From IMG/VR virus record IMGVR_UViG_3300020463_001848, positions 1 to 38,401 of that record: a DNA stretch of 38,401 nucleotides; one strand, written 5' to 3'. Below, piece after piece: positions 1 through 37,816 of the stretch. Source of the stretch: a virus. Below the pieces are notes generated by a model, which was not told the DNA's origin, made no database searches, and saw nothing but the letters and a program-made list of their open reading frames with translations. Position 1 is the first letter of the stretch. Every line of letters begins with the position of its first letter. A program made the translations under genes and the position numbers.

Positions 1-59
1 TAGGATTTATAGAGTTGCTGAATATCTATTACAAAGGAACAAAAGACATAAATGATTAA
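1..59 (+). CDS. 3' end of an upstream gene (partial)
   Basis: An open frame from base 3 to the TAA at 57-59 encodes a short C-terminal tail ending ...YYKGTKDIND and overlaps the uvdE start by 8 bases. A second frame is also open from base 2 to a TGA at 53-55, so the frame choice is uncertain. I prefer the first because its codons look more like the rest of the window. No function can be assigned from so few residues. Confidence 0.4.
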   Translation, partial: GFIELLNIYYKGTKDIND

Positions 60-1068
60 ACGTATAGGCTTTGCCTGTAAATATATGCACCCAGACCAGA
101 CTCAGAAGAAAAAACTTCTTGAGGAAATACAACGTCCTTTGAATACACGTTGTACAACAGTCGCTTGGTTAAACAGACAAACCAAAGAAGTTGCAGAACA
201 ACGACTGTGGGATATTATGGTGCATAATATTCAATCATTTAAAAACTTAATTGAATATGTAGGCGACTTACCTAATGAACTTAGAATGGTAAGACTTGGT
301 AGTGATTGTTTGCCTGTTTACACACAGGCAGATTGGTCTTACTATTGGAAGAAGCCTGACGTAATTGCATACTGTGAAAAACATTTTGCTACCGTTGGTG
401 AGATTGCTAGACAAAAAGATGTGCGTCTAAGTTTCCACCCAGGACAGTTTACAGTCTTAGCAAGTGACAATCCAGAAATAGTAAATAGAAGTATAGAGGA
501 GTTTGAATATCATGTTGACGTTGCAAGGTGGATGGGATACGGTAGACAATACCAAGACTTTAAAATCAATGTTCACATCTCAGGTAGGAAAGGTCCAGCC
601 GGTATCATCGACGCATACCCAAGACTATCTCCGGAGGCGAGAAACACGATTACGATCGAAAACGACGAAATGTCGTGGGGCATCGAAGCCAGTATTGAAC
701 TGCGTTCACGACTCGCCCTCGTTCTTGACATACACCACCACTGGGTTAAAACGGGTGAATACATTAAACCGACCGACGATAGATTTTTACGCATAGTAGA
801 AAGTTGGAGGGGTGTACGTCCTGTGATACATTATTCTGTATCACGTGAAGATCTACTTGTAGGCCATGATGTTGATACATTGCCCAACATGGAAGAACTA
901 CTAGAACAAGGCTTTAAGAAGGCTAAACTACGTGCTCACAGTGATTATATGTGGAATAATGCAGTAAATGACTGGGCAAGTACCTTTTGGGATCATGCAG
1001 ACATTATGGTAGAAAGCAAGGCTAAAAATCTTGCGAGCCATACTTTGCTAGATACATTTACACGATAA
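52..1068 (+). CDS. uvdE: UV damage endonuclease UvdE
   Basis: UvdE/UvsE-family UV damage endonuclease, a TIM-barrel metal enzyme that nicks DNA 5' of UV photoproducts and other lesions. The 338 residues are close to the usual family length. Family hallmarks are visible: SFHPGQF near residue 126, NVHISGR near 174, ENDE near 202, DIHHHW near 227 and a C-terminal AHSDYMW block, which supply the metal-binding His, Glu and Asp residues. It would act on phage or host DNA in the cytoplasm, giving light-damage repair in surface water. The stop codon lies inside the late promoter box of the next gene. Bases roughly 590-790 are clearly more GC- and CpG-rich than the flanks (see findings). Confidence 0.93.
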   Translation: MIKRIGFACKYMHPDQTQKKKLLEEIQRPLNTRCTTVAWLNRQTKEVAEQRLWDIMVHNIQSFKNLIEYVGDLPNELRMVRLGSDCLPVYTQADWSYYWKKPDVIAYCEKHFATVGEIARQKDVRLSFHPGQFTVLASDNPEIVNRSIEEFEYHVDVARWMGYGRQYQDFKINVHISGRKGPAGIIDAYPRLSPEARNTITIENDEMSWGIEASIELRSRLALVLDIHHHWVKTGEYIKPTDDRFLRIVESWRGVRPVIHYSVSREDLLVGHDVDTLPNMEELLEQGFKKAKLRAHSDYMWNNAVNDWASTFWDHADIMVESKAKNLASHTLLDTFTR

Positions 1069-1071
1069 ATA
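1064..1071 (+). promoter_or_regulatory. T4-type late promoter box GATAAATA
   Basis: A late box overlaps the uvdE stop codon and lies 4 bases before the ATG of the superoxide dismutase gene. By T4 geometry the transcript would start at about the start codon. Confidence 0.65.
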
Positions 1072-1075
1072 CAGT

Positions 1076-1645
1076 ATGACCTATACCAATGATATGCGAG
1101 AGTATATTTCTCTCTTTGAATCTAAAAGAGAACAATCGTTAACACTCGAAAAATTGCCTTATGGTACGGATGAATTATCTCCTGTACTGTCTAAGGAAAA
1201 TGTAGAATATCATTATAAGATATTGTCAAAAGGTTATGTCGAAAGATACAACAACAAAGAAGGCGATCCTGATTTTAATTATGGAGGCGCAAAGTTGCAC
1301 AATCTATGGTGGACACAATTACGAAAACCTAGTGGAGCAAACTTACCAGTAGGACCTATTAAAGAATTTATTAATAGCAAATTTAAAGATTATAATAATT
1401 TTAAAGACGAAGTGCTATTAGCAGGAATGAAATTACAAGGTTCAGGTTGGATTTATCTTTCAAAAAAAGGTGAAGTAAAGACTACACCGAATCAATCTTA
1501 TAAAACAGATATAATGATGCCAATAGATATGTGGGAACATTCTTTTTCAGACTATACTAAAGAAGGTAAGGAATGTAAGAAGAAGTATATCCAAAACATA
1601 ATGCGTATTATCAATTGGGACATCATAAATCAAAGATTAGCATAA
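1076..1645 (+). CDS. Iron/manganese superoxide dismutase family protein, Mn-type by sequence
   Basis: Converts superoxide to oxygen and hydrogen peroxide. All four family metal ligands can be placed: His46 (YHYK), His75 (KLHNLWW), Asp151 and His155 (DMWEH). A Gly four residues before His75 and a Gln in TPNQS match the Mn-type pattern rather than the Fe-type, whose active-site Gln sits at the first position. The domain starts at LEKLPYG, so about 24 extra residues lie ahead of it. An internal Met at residue 7 begins MREYISLFES, which resembles the short head-targeting N-termini seen later in the window. Either start is possible. The late box just upstream suggests late expression and perhaps packaging in the virion, which is inference. 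Confidence 0.87.
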   Translation: MTYTNDMREYISLFESKREQSLTLEKLPYGTDELSPVLSKENVEYHYKILSKGYVERYNNKEGDPDFNYGGAKLHNLWWTQLRKPSGANLPVGPIKEFINSKFKDYNNFKDEVLLAGMKLQGSGWIYLSKKGEVKTTPNQSYKTDIMMPIDMWEHSFSDYTKEGKECKKKYIQNIMRIINWDIINQRLA

Positions 1646-33463: not shown

Positions 33464-33475
33464 CTTCTATACAGT

Positions 33476-33483
33476 GATAAATA
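33476..33483 (+). promoter_or_regulatory. Late promoter box GATAAATA
   Basis: 23 bases before the ATG at 33507, with an AAGGGG ribosome site between. This favours that start over an upstream Met in the same frame at 33474. Confidence 0.72.
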
Positions 33484-33506
33484 CTCTATATAAGGGGAAT
33501 ATCGCT

Positions 33507-33866
33507 ATGAAAAATTTTAAAGAATATCTTTCAGAGTCAATCTACAAAGAAGAAACATATGAAGGTGATGACTTCTTTGAAACATATGGCGTATTATGGT
33601 TCAATGAAGATGATGTCGTTGATGAAGCAGAATATCAAGGACGTAAAGTAAAACTAGGCAAGCCAATGCGTGGCGATGTCAAAAAGTTTAAAGTTTATGT
33701 CAAAGATCCAAAAACAAAGAACGTTAAAAAAGTAAACTTTGGTGATCCTAATATGAAAATTAAAAAGTCTAATCCAGCACGTAGAAGAAGTTTCCGTGCA
33801 AGACATAATTGCGATAATCCAGGCCCAAGAACAAAAGCAAGATATTGGTCTTGCAGGAAGTGGTAA
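33507..33866 (+). CDS. Basic-tailed head protein candidate with targeting-like N-terminus
   Basis: 119 residues. The N-terminus MKNFKEYLSES resembles the T4 capsid targeting sequence (MKTYxEFIxE), and LSE followed by Ser fits the (I/L)xE prohead protease motif. The C-terminus is strongly basic with paired cysteines (RRRSFRARHNCDNPGPRTK, then ARYWSCRKW), suitable for DNA binding. An internal protein packed with DNA is plausible. The start at 33507 is chosen for the ribosome site. The frame is open to an earlier Met that would precede the late transcript. Confidence 0.75.
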   Translation: MKNFKEYLSESIYKEETYEGDDFFETYGVLWFNEDDVVDEAEYQGRKVKLGKPMRGDVKKFKVYVKDPKTKNVKKVNFGDPNMKIKKSNPARRRSFRARHNCDNPGPRTKARYWSCRKW

Positions 33867-33867
33867 T

Positions 33868-34203
33868 ATGAAACTAAAAGAATTTACCGATATCGATTTA
33901 GATAAAAAAAATGATATAGGATATGACATAGTTGATGACTTAAAATGTCATATGCGTGATGATCCTATGTTCTACAGAAAATTATACTATCCTTGTATGG
34001 CACAATTAAAAGATAGTTATGATAAAGGCGATCACAATTTTACTGGTGTTGCTGAAATGGTAGAAAAAGCAATACATCATTATTGTAAAAAATATGATCT
34101 TATCCAATCCCCAACAGAACTCTTGACAAAAGAAGATAAAGATGCTCTAATACAAGAAATATATAACGAAGAGTTAGAAGAAGTAAAAAAAGGCGAATAC
34201 TAA
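33868..34203 (+). CDS. Hypothetical helical protein, MKLKEF N-terminus
   Basis: 111 residues from the start at 33868, two bases after the previous stop and behind an AGGAAG ribosome site. An upstream Met in frame at 33796 would lie inside the preceding gene. Mostly helical and acidic (DIVDDLKCHMRDDPMFYRKL, AEMVEKAIHHYCKKYDLI, KDALIQEIYNEELEEV). The MKLKEFTD start follows the short N-terminal pattern shared in this region. Function unknown. Confidence 0.73.
   Translation: MKLKEFTDIDLDKKNDIGYDIVDDLKCHMRDDPMFYRKLYYPCMAQLKDSYDKGDHNFTGVAEMVEKAIHHYCKKYDLIQSPTELLTKEDKDALIQEIYNEELEEVKKGEY
34123..34151 (+). promoter_or_regulatory. Possible sigma70-type promoter, TTGACA-17-TCTAAT
   Basis: -35 TTGACA at 34123-34128 and -10-like TCTAAT at 34146-34151 with a 17-base spacer, inside the preceding gene and 52 bases before the nucleotidyltransferase start. 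It may be fortuitous. Confidence 0.25.
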
Positions 34204-35070
34204 ATGCTTTTAAGAGAGATAACATCACCTAATAAAACTGTCAGTTTTGCATTAGGAAGACTTAATCCTGCAACAACAGGACACGGACTTCTTGTTGAAG
34301 CAGTAAGACAAGGACCTGGTGATGCTATTTTATTCTTAACAGACCGTCCAGCAAAACTTCCTACAGATCCACTTAACCCAAATGAAAAATTAGATTGGGC
34401 AAGAAAAAGTTTTCCAGATATTAAAATAGAACTTGCAAAAAATATTATGTTTGCCGCTAGTGAGTTATATGCTAGAGGATATAGAGGTGTAACTTTTTTT
34501 GAAGGTGAAGATAAGTTAGGTAATCTATTAGAAAAATATAATGGACAAAAATCTGCACATGGTTTTTTTGAATTTGAAGAAATAAAATTTGAAAGGTTAT
34601 CACGTAATCCTGATGCCGAAGATGCCTCAGGCATGAGTGCAAGTAAATTAAGACAGGCAGTAATAGCCAAAGACTTTGATGCGTTTAATAAAGGCGTTAC
34701 AAAATCTGCACAACCATATGCCAAAAAAATGTTTGATAATTTATCAACTATATTAGGTAGCACAGAAGAAAACTTAGAAGAACTAGTAGTAAAACAACAG
34801 AAGCCTAAACTAGATGTACTTAATAACATAGCAAGTAGAAAAGATAATCAACCTTTTCCTTTAAGTTGGAATGCAGACGACAATGAAATCAAAGTAGGCG
34901 GTAAAGTATATGTTACACCACAAGAAGCAAATAAATTTTTACGTTTTTATGATGGCAGATCAGAAGACGAACAAGAACTTATGCAAAAAGCATTAAGAAG
35001 TGCAAAGACAACTGTTAATTTATTTAAAAATTTAAATTTTAAATTTACAACTGCACAAGAAAGTATTTAA
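34204..35070 (+). CDS. Nucleotidyltransferase (cytidylyltransferase-like fold)
   Basis: 288 residues. GRLNPATTGH at 18-27 is the adenylyl/cytidylyl transferase signature (GRFxPxTxGH), and MSASKLR at 144-150 is the second, phosphate-binding motif (ISSTxIR type). Members transfer AMP or CMP to small phosphorylated substrates, for example NMN adenylyltransferase. The exact substrate is not evident, and an NAD-related role is possible. The N-terminus MLLREITSPN matches the short motif of its neighbours, so it may be carried in the capsid. The C-terminal 100 residues form an extra domain of unknown role. Confidence 0.82.
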   Translation: MLLREITSPNKTVSFALGRLNPATTGHGLLVEAVRQGPGDAILFLTDRPAKLPTDPLNPNEKLDWARKSFPDIKIELAKNIMFAASELYARGYRGVTFFEGEDKLGNLLEKYNGQKSAHGFFEFEEIKFERLSRNPDAEDASGMSASKLRQAVIAKDFDAFNKGVTKSAQPYAKKMFDNLSTILGSTEENLEELVVKQQKPKLDVLNNIASRKDNQPFPLSWNADDNEIKVGGKVYVTPQEANKFLRFYDGRSEDEQELMQKALRSAKTTVNLFKNLNFKFTTAQESI

Positions 35071-35298
35071 ATGGATATTGCAGACTTAAAAAAACTAGCA
35101 GGTATTCCAGAATATACAGGACAACATCCTGTTACTTCTGAAGATATCAACATTAGTCATACTGCAACTGCACTGAAGCAGAAAGAAAGAGAACTTGGTC
35201 TTAAGCCAGGGGATCAAGAATGGTTCAAACTTTGGTTTGGACTTCCTAAAATGACAGGTATGAATATGCCTAAAGGTTTTAGAGGAAGGAAGAAATGA
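35071..35298 (+). CDS. Hypothetical small protein, 75 residues
   Basis: MDIADLKKLAGI followed by a small domain with KQKERELGLKPGDQEWFKLW and a basic tail (GFRGRKK). It starts directly after the preceding stop and overlaps the next lipoprotein gene by ATGA. The IADLKKLAGI start resembles N-termini of other marine phage proteins. No function assigned. Confidence 0.7.
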   Translation: MDIADLKKLAGIPEYTGQHPVTSEDINISHTATALKQKERELGLKPGDQEWFKLWFGLPKMTGMNMPKGFRGRKK

Positions 35299-35489
35299 AA
35301 ATATTAGCAATACTAATTACAGGATTAATGTTAGCATCTTGCAGTGGACATATTGTACCACCAAGTGTTAAATTAGGCAAAAAATGTACTGTTGCAGAGG
35401 ATGGACAAATAGTTTATTCTTATGTATGGTTACATAAAAAAGGTGAAGAACTTACCGCAAACGCAAAAACTTGTGAAAAGATAAAATAA
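35295..35489 (+). CDS. Small lipoprotein
   Basis: 64 residues with a typical lipoprotein signal: KILAILITGLMLASC, lipobox LASC, lipidated Cys16. The mature part is about 48 residues with two cysteines (CTVAEDGQIVYSYVWLHKKG...C). Presumably membrane-anchored facing the periplasm. Possibly superinfection exclusion or envelope modification, which is inference. Confidence 0.72.
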   Translation: MKILAILITGLMLASCSGHIVPPSVKLGKKCTVAEDGQIVYSYVWLHKKGEELTANAKTCEKIK

Positions 35490-35490
35490 A

Positions 35491-36954
35491 ATGAAATTAC
35501 GTGAACTTTATGAGCATGGTGGAAGAATTGTAAAAGGTGTAAACACTACTCCTGATGTTGGCGTGAATCAAATACCAATAGAAGCAGGGAAGTTTGGCTT
35601 TAAAGTAGACAAAGACGGACGACCTCCAGAACTTAATAAAAAGGCAAGAAAAAATTCTAGTCCAAACACATTATTTAATTTAGGTTTAGCAGAAAGTAAG
35701 ATAGACGAAATTAAAGCAAAGGAGTTATCAAGTTCATCAGAAATATTTGTAGATATGGATGGTGTGCTTGTTGATTTCTTTGGTGCATGGACTAAACTTA
35801 TGAAAGTTAAAAAGTGGTTTCAAATTAAAAATGTAGAAAAAGGTCTACAAAAAGTAAGAGATACCGAAGACTTTTGGCTGAACTTAAAACCTACTAAGAA
35901 CGCAGATAAATTATTAGGAATCATTAAAAACATTAAAGGTGAATATAATATTTTATCGGCTCCATTAGCAGATGATCCGAGAGCAGAACCAGATAAACGT
36001 GCTTGGGTAGAGAAATACTTAAAGGCATTTCCACCTAAGAAAGTTATCATTACTGCAAACAAACAAGCATACGCAAAACAAAAAGATGGAACTCCAAATA
36101 TCTTAATTGATGACTTTGGACAAAACGTGAAAAAATGGGAAGGCGCAGGTGGCGTGGGATTCAAACATAAAGACCATAAGTTCGAAAGAACTGCAAGTAG
36201 TCTTAAACAATACTTTGAAAAACCAGCAACTGAAGGCGACTTAATTCCACTTCCAAAAAATAGTGTTTCAGTAGATTCAGATGCTACTGATTACGACTTT
36301 ATGAAGTTAGGACGTAACATGGCCAATATAGCAACAACTAATCCAGATGATGCTAATATGGGTGACCAAGATATTATGTTAAACTTCTTCGGAGGTGAAA
36401 AAGAAAAGAAACATATGGTATCCAACCTTAAAAGATTAGGTTACAAGGTTGGTGATGTAAGTGGTTATCAAGACCACAACTTTGACCCAGAACCCACTAA
36501 AGGCAATCCGCCGCCACAAATACATTCCAAAGACGTGGACGGTAAACTTGGTAAAATGAAGATCGCTCTCATTACACCAGTACAAAAGGATAGATCCTTT
36601 AGTAAACTAGCGAAACAATATCGTAATGTTCAATTGGATGAATATAAACCGATCGTTGTTGACCGCAAAGGACGTATTTGTAACGGACATCATAGATACG
36701 ATGCACTACGCCTGCTAGATCACGAGTATGCTTTGGTAAAAATGGTAGATACATACTTGGAAGACATCATGAGCGAAAACTTTGCGGATGGCAAGAAGCC
36801 TGGACGGAAAGGCCTTAGCAAGAGAGTTGGAATACCAAAAAAGGCTTCCATAAGCCAACTGAGTAAAATTGCTAAATCTAGTTCAGGAGAGAAGAGGCGC
36901 ATGGCCCAGTGGCAGTTAAATATGCGTAGAGGCAAGGCAAAAAAAGGTAAATAG
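35491..36954 (+). CDS. HAD-phosphatase and ParB-like fusion with basic tail
   Basis: 487 residues. The N-terminus MKLRELYEHG carries the local targeting-like motif. Near 61-69 LFNLGLAES is repeated in the last gene of the window. Residues about 83-230 are a HAD domain of the 5'-nucleotidase type: EIFVDMDGVLVDFF with Asp88 and Asp90, ILSAPLADDP, and NILIDDFGQN. Residues about 385-415 contain a ParB/sulfiredoxin-like block (VVDRKGRICNGHHRYDALRL). The final 50 residues are very basic (GKKPGRKGLSKRVGIPKK). This joins a nucleotide phosphatase with a possible nuclease or nucleotide-binding domain and a DNA-binding tail. Confidence 0.8.
   Translation: MKLRELYEHGGRIVKGVNTTPDVGVNQIPIEAGKFGFKVDKDGRPPELNKKARKNSSPNTLFNLGLAESKIDEIKAKELSSSSEIFVDMDGVLVDFFGAWTKLMKVKKWFQIKNVEKGLQKVRDTEDFWLNLKPTKNADKLLGIIKNIKGEYNILSAPLADDPRAEPDKRAWVEKYLKAFPPKKVIITANKQAYAKQKDGTPNILIDDFGQNVKKWEGAGGVGFKHKDHKFERTASSLKQYFEKPATEGDLIPLPKNSVSVDSDATDYDFMKLGRNMANIATTNPDDANMGDQDIMLNFFGGEKEKKHMVSNLKRLGYKVGDVSGYQDHNFDPEPTKGNPPPQIHSKDVDGKLGKMKIALITPVQKDRSFSKLAKQYRNVQLDEYKPIVVDRKGRICNGHHRYDALRLLDHEYALVKMVDTYLEDIMSENFADGKKPGRKGLSKRVGIPKKASISQLSKIAKSSSGEKRRMAQWQLNMRRGKAKKGK
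36946..36953 (+). promoter_or_regulatory. Variant late promoter box GGTAAATA
   Basis: It ends exactly 5 bases before the ATG at 36959, the same geometry as at 13955, 32834 and 37812. It overlaps the stop of the preceding gene. Confidence 0.55.
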
Positions 36955-36958
36955 TAGT

Positions 36959-37816
36959 ATGAGACTAAGAGAATTAACATCAGTAAAGGAAAACCCTTTA
37001 GCACCAAAACCTACTATGGCTCAACAGGCCGCAGGTGCAGTCAAAAAAACTGTAAACAAAGTAGGACAAGGCGCTAAGATGGCCGCACAGAAGATGGGTG
37101 CAAAAGGTACTGGTGGTATGATGGCAAAAGGCTTAGATAAACTTGCTTCAGGTGGTGCATTAACAGGAAACTTATCCAAACAGATTGCTCCATTTGCCAA
37201 GCAACTATCTACTATATTAGCAGATACTACACTTAGAAACAAATTTATGATGCTTGTAAAACAAGCAGAAGCAGGTGCTAAAAAGCAGGCGGCACAACCA
37301 CAAGCGGGACAACCTCAAGCACAACCACAAGCAGGACAACCTCAAGCACAACCACAAATGCAAACACAAAGCATGGAGGAAGATCCTTTTAACGATGAAG
37401 TTAATAACATACTTAAAAAACATCCAGAAGCAACTGCAAAAATGAAATCAACAGGTGATGTAAATGATATTTACAACACTGATTTATACATGGATTTATT
37501 TACACACTATCAACAAGATATGCCATACGGCACACAAAAAGCAAGAGATGGTGATCCAGTACAATTTATACAAGACGAATTAGATGAATTAGGCATATTT
37601 GATGATAACGAAATGGCTGAAGCGGCAACACCAGGTGCCACTAGTGCAGGTTCAATAGCAACTGTGGCTAATCCTATAACTGCTTATGCTAAAGTTAAAA
37701 AAGATGGCAAAGGTGTTCCTAAAGCAGACCAAAAGAAAACTCCTAAAGGAACAGCCGTAAATGCACTTGATATGAAGGGTGCAAGTCTATTTGGCGGAAA
37801 CATACAAAAGAGGTAA
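36959..37816 (+). CDS. Head-internal protein candidate with Gln/Pro repeat
   Basis: 285 residues. MRLRELTSVKEN start, then a basic, Ala/Gly/Met-rich stretch (VKKTVNKVGQGAKMAAQKMG). A tandem AQPQAGQPQ repeat follows at about 112-133 and an acidic middle (EEDPFNDEVNNILKKHPEAT). EMAEAATPG near 219 and a low-complexity C-terminus complete it. It resembles packaged or prohead core proteins by composition and by the shared N-terminal motif. No enzyme motif. Confidence 0.72.
   Translation: MRLRELTSVKENPLAPKPTMAQQAAGAVKKTVNKVGQGAKMAAQKMGAKGTGGMMAKGLDKLASGGALTGNLSKQIAPFAKQLSTILADTTLRNKFMMLVKQAEAGAKKQAAQPQAGQPQAQPQAGQPQAQPQMQTQSMEEDPFNDEVNNILKKHPEATAKMKSTGDVNDIYNTDLYMDLFTHYQQDMPYGTQKARDGDPVQFIQDELDELGIFDDNEMAEAATPGATSAGSIATVANPITAYAKVKKDGKGVPKADQKKTPKGTAVNALDMKGASLFGGNIQKR
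37292..37357 (+). repeat. 27-base tandem repeat (AQPQAGQPQ), 2.4 copies
   Basis: Copies at 37292-37318 and 37319-37345 and a partial copy at 37346-37357, in frame inside the gene at 36959. The two full copies differ by one third-codon base (gcg versus gca), showing a recent duplication. Confidence 0.92.

Follow-up and report, generated by a model that had tools for sequence, protein, structure and literature searches.

A phage superoxide dismutase with a predicted T4-type capsid-targeting sequence: candidate head cargo in environmental phages

The DNA analysed here, referred to as the window, is the whole 38,401-nucleotide stretch of IMG/VR record IMGVR_UViG_3300020463_001848. Near its left end lies a gene for a superoxide dismutase (SOD), with the following features (here and below a slash marks a predicted cut):

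52..1068, + strand, UvdE-type UV endonuclease, direct upstream neighbour, outside the tag system (PF03851 6.6e-38, phrog_8420 5.5e-78)
1064..1071, + strand, late promoter box GATAAATA, ending 4 nt ahead of the first ATG (from sequence; conserved in relatives)
1076..1645, + strand, superoxide dismutase gene, 189 aa (ORF call; PF02777 5.3e-17, PF00081 6.2e-10)
1076..1141, + strand, N-terminal extension, residues 1-22, MTYTNDMREYISLFESKREQSL (Pfam match from residue 23)
1094..1120, + strand, predicted capsid-targeting sequence MREYISLFE ((L/I)xE in homologous extensions; gp21 motif)
between 1120 and 1121, + strand, predicted prohead-protease site LFE15/S16 (T4 gp21-type motif)
1211..1213, + strand, metal ligand His46 (invariant in alignment A2, 34/34)
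1223..1225, + strand, Leu50, in the place of the usual second-sphere His (Leu in 83/83 and 49/49)
1298..1300, + strand, metal ligand His75, 29 residues past His46 (invariant in A2)
1493..1495, + strand, Gln140, C-terminal water-coordinating Gln, Mn type (invariant in A2)
1526..1528, + strand, metal ligand Asp151, with Pro149 as the D-2 residue (invariant in A2)
1538..1540, + strand, metal ligand His155 (invariant in A2)

Both Pfam profiles score above cut-off, with PF00081 covering only positions 3-41 of 82, and the domain begins at residue 23. The protein is alignable with solved SOD structures, and an AF2 model of the monomer, made from a 34-row alignment, has a mean pLDDT of 91 and 1qnn as its top Foldseek match (E 1.3e-13, TM 0.76). 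Family profile, fold and the three His and one Asp ligands place it in the Fe/Mn SOD family (PF00081/PF02777). The preliminary description of this DNA held the four ligands to be intact; H46, H75, D151 and H155 are indeed present and are invariant in all 34 rows of a phage SOD alignment (A2), in which the gateway-Tyr position (Y54) and the C-terminal Gln are likewise kept. Its assignment of Gly and Gln to the Mn type was also borne out, as G71 at the N-terminal and Q140 at the C-terminal position show the pattern of SodFM1/5, where the C-terminal Gln goes with mostly Mn-preferring, peroxide-resistant enzymes (PMC10172142, accessible part). The HXXXHH motif of SodFM1-5, of which SodFM4 has lost the last His (same part of PMC10172142), was not found in the window SOD, which reads H46-Y-K-I-L50-S. 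Judged by its residue pattern the enzyme is probably of the Mn type.

The position occupied by Leu50 is, in MnSOD numbering, presumably that of His30. This Leu for the first His of the HXXXHH pair was found in 83/83 SODs of a first sample of relatives and at all 49 novel loci of a second. The samples stem from IMG/VR scans with at least 544 and at least 595 confirmed relatives; 80 were kept from each of these overlapping sets, and the parsed relatives comprise 101 distinct SOD cores. Ligands 1 and 2 lie 29 residues apart in 141 of the 144 parsed entries (both samples, duplicates included; three unresolved), whereas in the bacterial matches, measured for six out of nine, the distance is 48 or 55. 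The D-2 residue is Pro in 77/83 SODs of sample 1 and Leu in 43/49 of the more distant sample 2. By sequence, the phage SODs are a distinct type, marked by the 29-residue spacing and the second-sphere His to Leu change. GenBank phage records gave 26 matches, namely 11 PA5oct-like Pseudomonas phages, one Vibrio phage and 14 others with 26-33% identity. A recent bacterial origin was considered, and is weakened by the finding of 10 relatives, at 23-33% identity, among 84,980 genomes in a scan that used phage-derived patterns and is no count of bacterial SODs in general. The best of these (L141, contig CAJIZS010000002.1) was binned in a Methylophilaceae MAG; its contig was taken as phage because the phage-type SOD frame is broken and the neighbours, read by eye, are HNH, ClpS and Suf-type genes. 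A tagged SOD, MRFQHILE/A, also occurs on a very large viral contig of 452,799 bases (L257).

The N-terminal extension had been given as 24 residues long. An extension is present, but it measures about 22 residues ahead of the Pfam domain. In the AF2 model residues 1-20 have a mean pLDDT of 52-61 per block, against at least 90 in later blocks, and residues 4-15 form a short, separate helix of low confidence; a second ATG at 1094 (MREY...) is an alternative possible start. T4 IpII and IpIII begin MKTYQEFIAEA and gp22 begins MLKEQLIAEA, while gp23 contains FLTEA. As described in the accessible part of PMC9026906, T4 gp21 cleaves after L/I-X-E, the first 10 residues of IPIII are enough for packaging, targeting depends on residues 4 and 7 and processing on residues 8 and 10, and foreign proteins fused to the capsid-targeting sequence (CTS) are packed and delivered. 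The propeptides of T4 internal proteins are 10-20 residues long (PMC5694885, accessible part), and the signal sequence has served to identify many ip genes (PMC12373910, accessible part). The fourth residue of the window tag MREYISLFE is Tyr, and with an L/I-x-E end at LFE15 the SOD N-terminus would qualify as a T4-type propeptide of 10-20 residues.

Conservation of this site was scored in homologous extensions as (L/I)xE located 8-14 residues ahead of the SOD core. Sample 1 comprises 83 of 85 sequences, the window included and L138 and L139 omitted as their ORFs were not parsed, with 49 distinct extensions; sample 2, scored by the identical rule, adds 38 distinct extensions new relative to sample 1. 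In sample 2, 19/80 loci fall outside the count as the core pattern missed them (L199, L215, L220, L223-L226, L228, L230-L234, L243, L247, L248, L254, L264, L266), many of which show LxE by eye, and L216, without usable start, is scored as a miss. The site is present in 43/49 extensions of sample 1, against 10.9 +- 2.8 after shuffling (maximum 20 in 1000 shuffles), and is followed by A, S, T or G in 37/49 (shuffled 1.7 +- 1.3, maximum 7); the figures for sample 2 are 29/38 (8.2 +- 2.4, maximum 16) and 28/38 (1.3 +- 1.1, maximum 5), and because the sampled sequences are related these comparisons are not probabilities. When sample 1 is anchored on the site under a wider hydrophobic-x-E rule, which makes P1 Glu in 49/49 by construction, P3 is L or I in 43/49 and P1' is A, S or T in 38/49, with P2, P4 and P7 variable. 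A few script calls differ from the aligned site: IRE was marked in L005, where the alignment gives LLE/A, and IME in L010, L011 and L019, where it gives VTE. The misses of sample 2 include MKNFAHFVE/S, MKNFSHFIE/S and VIE/A, which still keep a hydrophobic residue. Over the 87 distinct extensions the strongest-kept element is the T4-type prohead-protease site.

The extensions themselves are exchanged more freely than the site. Nine tag classes assigned by eye, one of them mixed, undergo 19 changes (minimum 8) on a maximum likelihood tree of 74 SOD cores, and the site is mostly kept across these changes. An extension that acts as a targeting and cleavage signal would be expected to behave in this way, unlike one that is integral to the enzyme. 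For example, L203 (MLKELKDIIIE/A) and L213 (MKVNDFLTE/A) have close cores and unlike tags, at a fork with support 97/8, which is poor by SH-aLRT. Taken by sequence, these short, exchangeable tags look like the head-packing signal of T4. Extensions of the LAGI type lack the site in register (IGE in L014-L018, ITG in L134, ITD in L135). The LKKLAGI N-terminus was tried as a second cleavable tag (IGE, IPE) and dropped; cleavage is not claimed for this type because relatives carry ITG and ITD. The SOD of Vibrio phage 2.275.O (L021) has no N-terminal extension. Its C-terminus (L021 6469-6537) reads ...MLDESVNIRHLINFISK, that is LDE/S followed by a tag-like peptide, and perhaps the tag has moved to this end of the protein.

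A late box before the gene had been proposed, and GATAAATA was found at 1064-1071. The window holds 12 NATAAATA sites on the + strand, 10 of which have G first, and one on the - strand; the site at 33476 lies just ahead of a group of tagged genes at the far end. In relatives TAAATA occurs in the 70 nt preceding the tag start at 40/48 distinct loci of sample 1 (3.8% of random windows) and 26/36 of sample 2 (5.0%). The eight loci without it in sample 1 are L095, L101, L104, L120 and the LAGI-type L014, L018, L134 and L135, for which an inner Met was used so that the search covered the region upstream of that Met. Going by this box, a sequence feature strongly conserved in relatives, the SOD gene is probably expressed late. 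As TAAATA begins 10-12 nt ahead of the ATG used in 29 of the 40 loci, the message may be almost leaderless. At L012, L013, L115, L116, L122 and L126 the box sits within a small palindrome (e.g., GCGATAAATATCGC) a few bases before the ATG. Upstream of SOD, a simple pattern search found the UvdE motif at 10/48 loci, which hints at a link to light and oxidative damage. The small gene 3' of SOD (1672-1890) weakly matches phrog_8608, prohead protease inhibitor (E 2.9e-4 over 37 residues), which may reflect just a common SAP-like domain.

At the far end of the window, five genes have N-termini that the preliminary description likened to MREYISLFES:

33507..33866, + strand, protein starting MKNFKEYLSE/S, T4-IP-like N-terminus (phrog_7595 8.7e-13); the start is an internal ATG of ORF 33474-33866
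34204..35070, + strand, cytidylyltransferase-like protein, tag-like start MLLREITS (phrog_3041 1.2e-32)
35071..35298, + strand, small protein MDIADLKKLAGIPE..., N-terminal type as in the SODs of L014-L018
35491..36954, + strand, deoxyribonucleotidase-like protein, start MKLRELYE (PF06941 7e-09)
36959..37816, + strand, protein with tag-like start MRLRELTS (rule R3)

The likeness holds for the type, i.e., short, basic or polar N-termini with hydrophobic positions and an LxE-like site in 3/5; it does not extend to close homology. Relatives of two of these proteins carry tags as well, MSLTKYISE/S in contig G020 (at 207823; phrog_7595 1.1e-11) and MFLRELFE/A in G009 (phrog_3041 5.8e-52). The 35491 protein has a C-terminal basic SGEK-M-W module, of a kind that a module scan also found in the L120 SOD. 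The latter starts MKIKEL and continues past the enzyme with CWxGYKQVG and SGE..M..W basic modules, kinds that recur in tagged proteins of the window (35491), G014, G009 and G018; among parsed SODs such a fusion was seen in 1/83 and 0/61. The genes directly 3' of the window SOD are untagged.

A suitable protease is encoded by the long relatives. Genes for an S77 protease and Gp23 were found in 3/3 searched IMG/VR SOD contigs above 240 kb (G018, 243 kb; G020, 300 kb; G021, 316 kb), and the protease also in PA5oct and Vibrio phage 2.275.O; no S77 protease was found in 27 other IMG/VR SOD contigs, all of 148 kb or less, and no PF03420 match in the window, a 38 kb fragment. Gp23 has the predicted cuts KHLAE/N (G020, G021), KYLAE/A (G018) and RFLVE/N (PA5oct), and the small proteins upstream of the protease, MKLFEFFE/A (G020), MRYKELKE/A (G018) and MKINDIITE/G (PA5oct), are read as gp67-like. 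In both G018 (227-237 kb) and G014 (113-121 kb), SOD belongs to a run of genes whose N-termini resemble the capsid-targeting sequences of T4, such as MRLYEIVE, MRYSEIINE, MRLTKLFE, MRISEITTE and MRYSELLE. Around SOD the anchored rule R3 fits 7/18 genes against 4/282 elsewhere in G018 (p 2e-7) and 9/16 against 4/164 in G014 (p 2e-8), p values that are post hoc because R3 was drawn from tags in those genomes, the run boundaries also having been picked after inspection. A plain LxE rule applied to whole proteomes was too weak, as the G018 count failed to exceed every shuffle. The genes around SOD in G020 and G021 have no capsid-targeting-like starts. Each of these contigs encodes a non-SOD protein with a start close to the SOD tag, MREYLDIITE in G020 (512 residues; no Pfam or PHROG match) and MREYVEIIAE in its G021 counterpart (511 aa). 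Other enzymes with capsid-targeting-like N-termini are a nucleotidase (NT5C), a cytidylyltransferase and a PAP2 phosphatase (G018 229504-230202), such enzymes lying at 33507-37816 in the window, 227-237 kb in G018, 113-121 kb in G014 and 1173-2201 in G009. Their N-termini suggest a wider set of packed phage enzymes beyond SOD.

The Pseudomonas jumbo phage PA5oct encodes a homologue of the window SOD, EST35_0261 (36.5% identity over 94% of the query), annotated 'hypothetical protein'. It starts MNDSIKKYISIAE/A, with the tag ending ISIAE/A, and a scan with this single protein as query returned one relative. Its record bears an 'ESI-MS/MS' note, as do 93 CDSs (transcribed count), among them, as far as seen, those named 'structural protein'; the mass spectrometry was reportedly performed by Lood et al. 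on virions. Soluble enzymes (RNR, thymidylate synthase, FtsH, ligase, ClpP) bear the note too, so SOD could be a contaminant. PA5oct provides an independent test of R3, which was derived from G018 and G014: the rule fits 8/93 MS-noted proteins against 4/312 other ORFs (p 0.0013). The PA5oct SOD itself does not fit R3, and plain LxE gives no separation in this phage (11/93 MS-noted against 42/312 others, p 0.72). For the related phage MIJ3 the accessible part of PMC6892783 lists four proteins as the major virion bands by MS, with SOD absent, and superoxide is not mentioned in the accessible part of PMC6950013. The PA5oct data support SOD packaging, short of proof.

We consider it likely that the window encodes a late-made Mn-type SOD that is packed via its CTS, trimmed at LFE15/S16 and ejected with the genome. 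SOD would be produced late in infection, and MREYISLFE would act like the T4 CTS and join the enzyme to the prohead core. A gp21-type protease would then cut after Glu15, leaving a mature SOD that begins at Ser16, accompanies the DNA inside the head and enters the following host cell together with it. In that cell, or while still in the particle, the enzyme may dismute superoxide and so protect early metabolism and the DNA being delivered. Of this scheme we infer the targeting, cleavage and packaging of SOD, its ejection, and that the enzyme is active and of benefit; the gene, its intact active-site residues, the conserved cleavage-type site and the late box stand in the sequence itself, as do the protease genes of long relatives and the tagged neighbours in two of them. 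Carriage of SOD in the capsid had been guessed from one sequence. It is now supported by the kept site (43/49, 29/38) and the late boxes, by the protease in the long relatives searched, by the tagged neighbours in two genomes and by the MS note on the PA5oct homologue, and can be called well supported by sequence, short of proof.

The enzyme might instead be a late-made cytosolic SOD, an auxiliary metabolic gene product, with the extension as a dispensable helix and LxE as an amphipathic helix pattern. This would agree with the short helix in the model, the lack of a tagged gene adjoining SOD in the window, the soluble enzymes that share the MS note in PA5oct, and MIJ3 virion MS without SOD, which in the accessible part of its report covers four major bands only. 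It is nevertheless unlikely, as composition-preserving shuffles yield far fewer sites, the residue after the Glu is A, S or T in 38/49, and very unlike extensions retain the site. It is also conceivable that the protein is packed as a structural or DNA-binding core component in which the SOD fold is reused with little or no catalysis, as the replacement of the second-sphere His by Leu (83/83) and the basic C-terminal modules on one SOD (L120) could indicate; against this, 34/34 rows retain all four ligands, Y54 at the gateway-Tyr position and the Gln that coordinates water, and we find it very improbable.

If packaging of an active SOD is taken as the preferred reading, a Mn rather than Fe centre next to DNA would avoid Fenton chemistry. 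It is tempting to extend this to a broader picture, to which we would give an even chance: that a phage-specific SOD class travels as head cargo in hundreds of T4-like phages, often of jumbo size, by means of interchangeable tags, within a larger packed-enzyme set of nucleotidase, cytidylyltransferase and PAP2 phosphatase, and that this DNA-associated Mn enzyme would guard the genome against oxidative injury at entry while avoiding the Fenton risk that iron brings. One may further suppose that in sunlit water it guards the genome against photo-oxidative superoxide. Among the literature matches listed, none dealt with a phage SOD that is packaged or carries a CTS, and both this SOD type and an Fe/Mn SOD as tailed-phage cargo appear new within the literature searched; the tag system itself is already known, and virion SODs have been published for giant eukaryotic viruses (PMC9405923, accessible part). 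Cargo of the T4 internal protein kind is known mostly for counter-defence, and packaged SODs mostly from giant eukaryotic viruses. If the interpretation is true, tailed-phage virions carry redox protection that is kept over hundreds of environmental phages, and N-terminal tags could predict the injected cargo of uncultured phages.

T4 IpI-IpIII and Alt are gp21-processed, injected head proteins, and Alt has enzyme activity. Like them, the SODs have a short N-terminal propeptide that ends in (L/I)xE, mostly before A, S or T, a late box, a gp21-type protease in the long relatives and a passenger unrelated to the tag. They differ in that the passenger is SOD, with predicted packaging and cleavage, whereas Ip1-3 are restriction inhibitors (PMC12373910, accessible part). 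With SodFM1-5 (PMC10172142, accessible part) the window SOD shares the fold, the four ligands and, as in SodFM1/5, the C-terminal Gln, but it lacks HXXXHH (H-Y-x-x-L-S) and has an N-terminal tag; compared with the bacterial matches it has about 19-26 fewer residues between ligands 1 and 2. EST35_0261 of PA5oct and sodB of MIJ3 are homologous SODs, that of PA5oct being tagged, but PA5oct has His where the window has Gln at the water-coordinating position, as is also the case in the Vibrio phage SOD. Giant eukaryotic viruses lack this tag and protease route, and the Megavirus enzyme cited in the accessible part of PMC9405923 is of the Cu,Zn type, unrelated to Fe/Mn SOD. Similar to the situation proposed here, superoxide dismutase is among the enzymes packaged by giant eukaryotic viruses and may protect early infection (same part of PMC9405923), and poxviruses also package redox proteins (PMC9282662).
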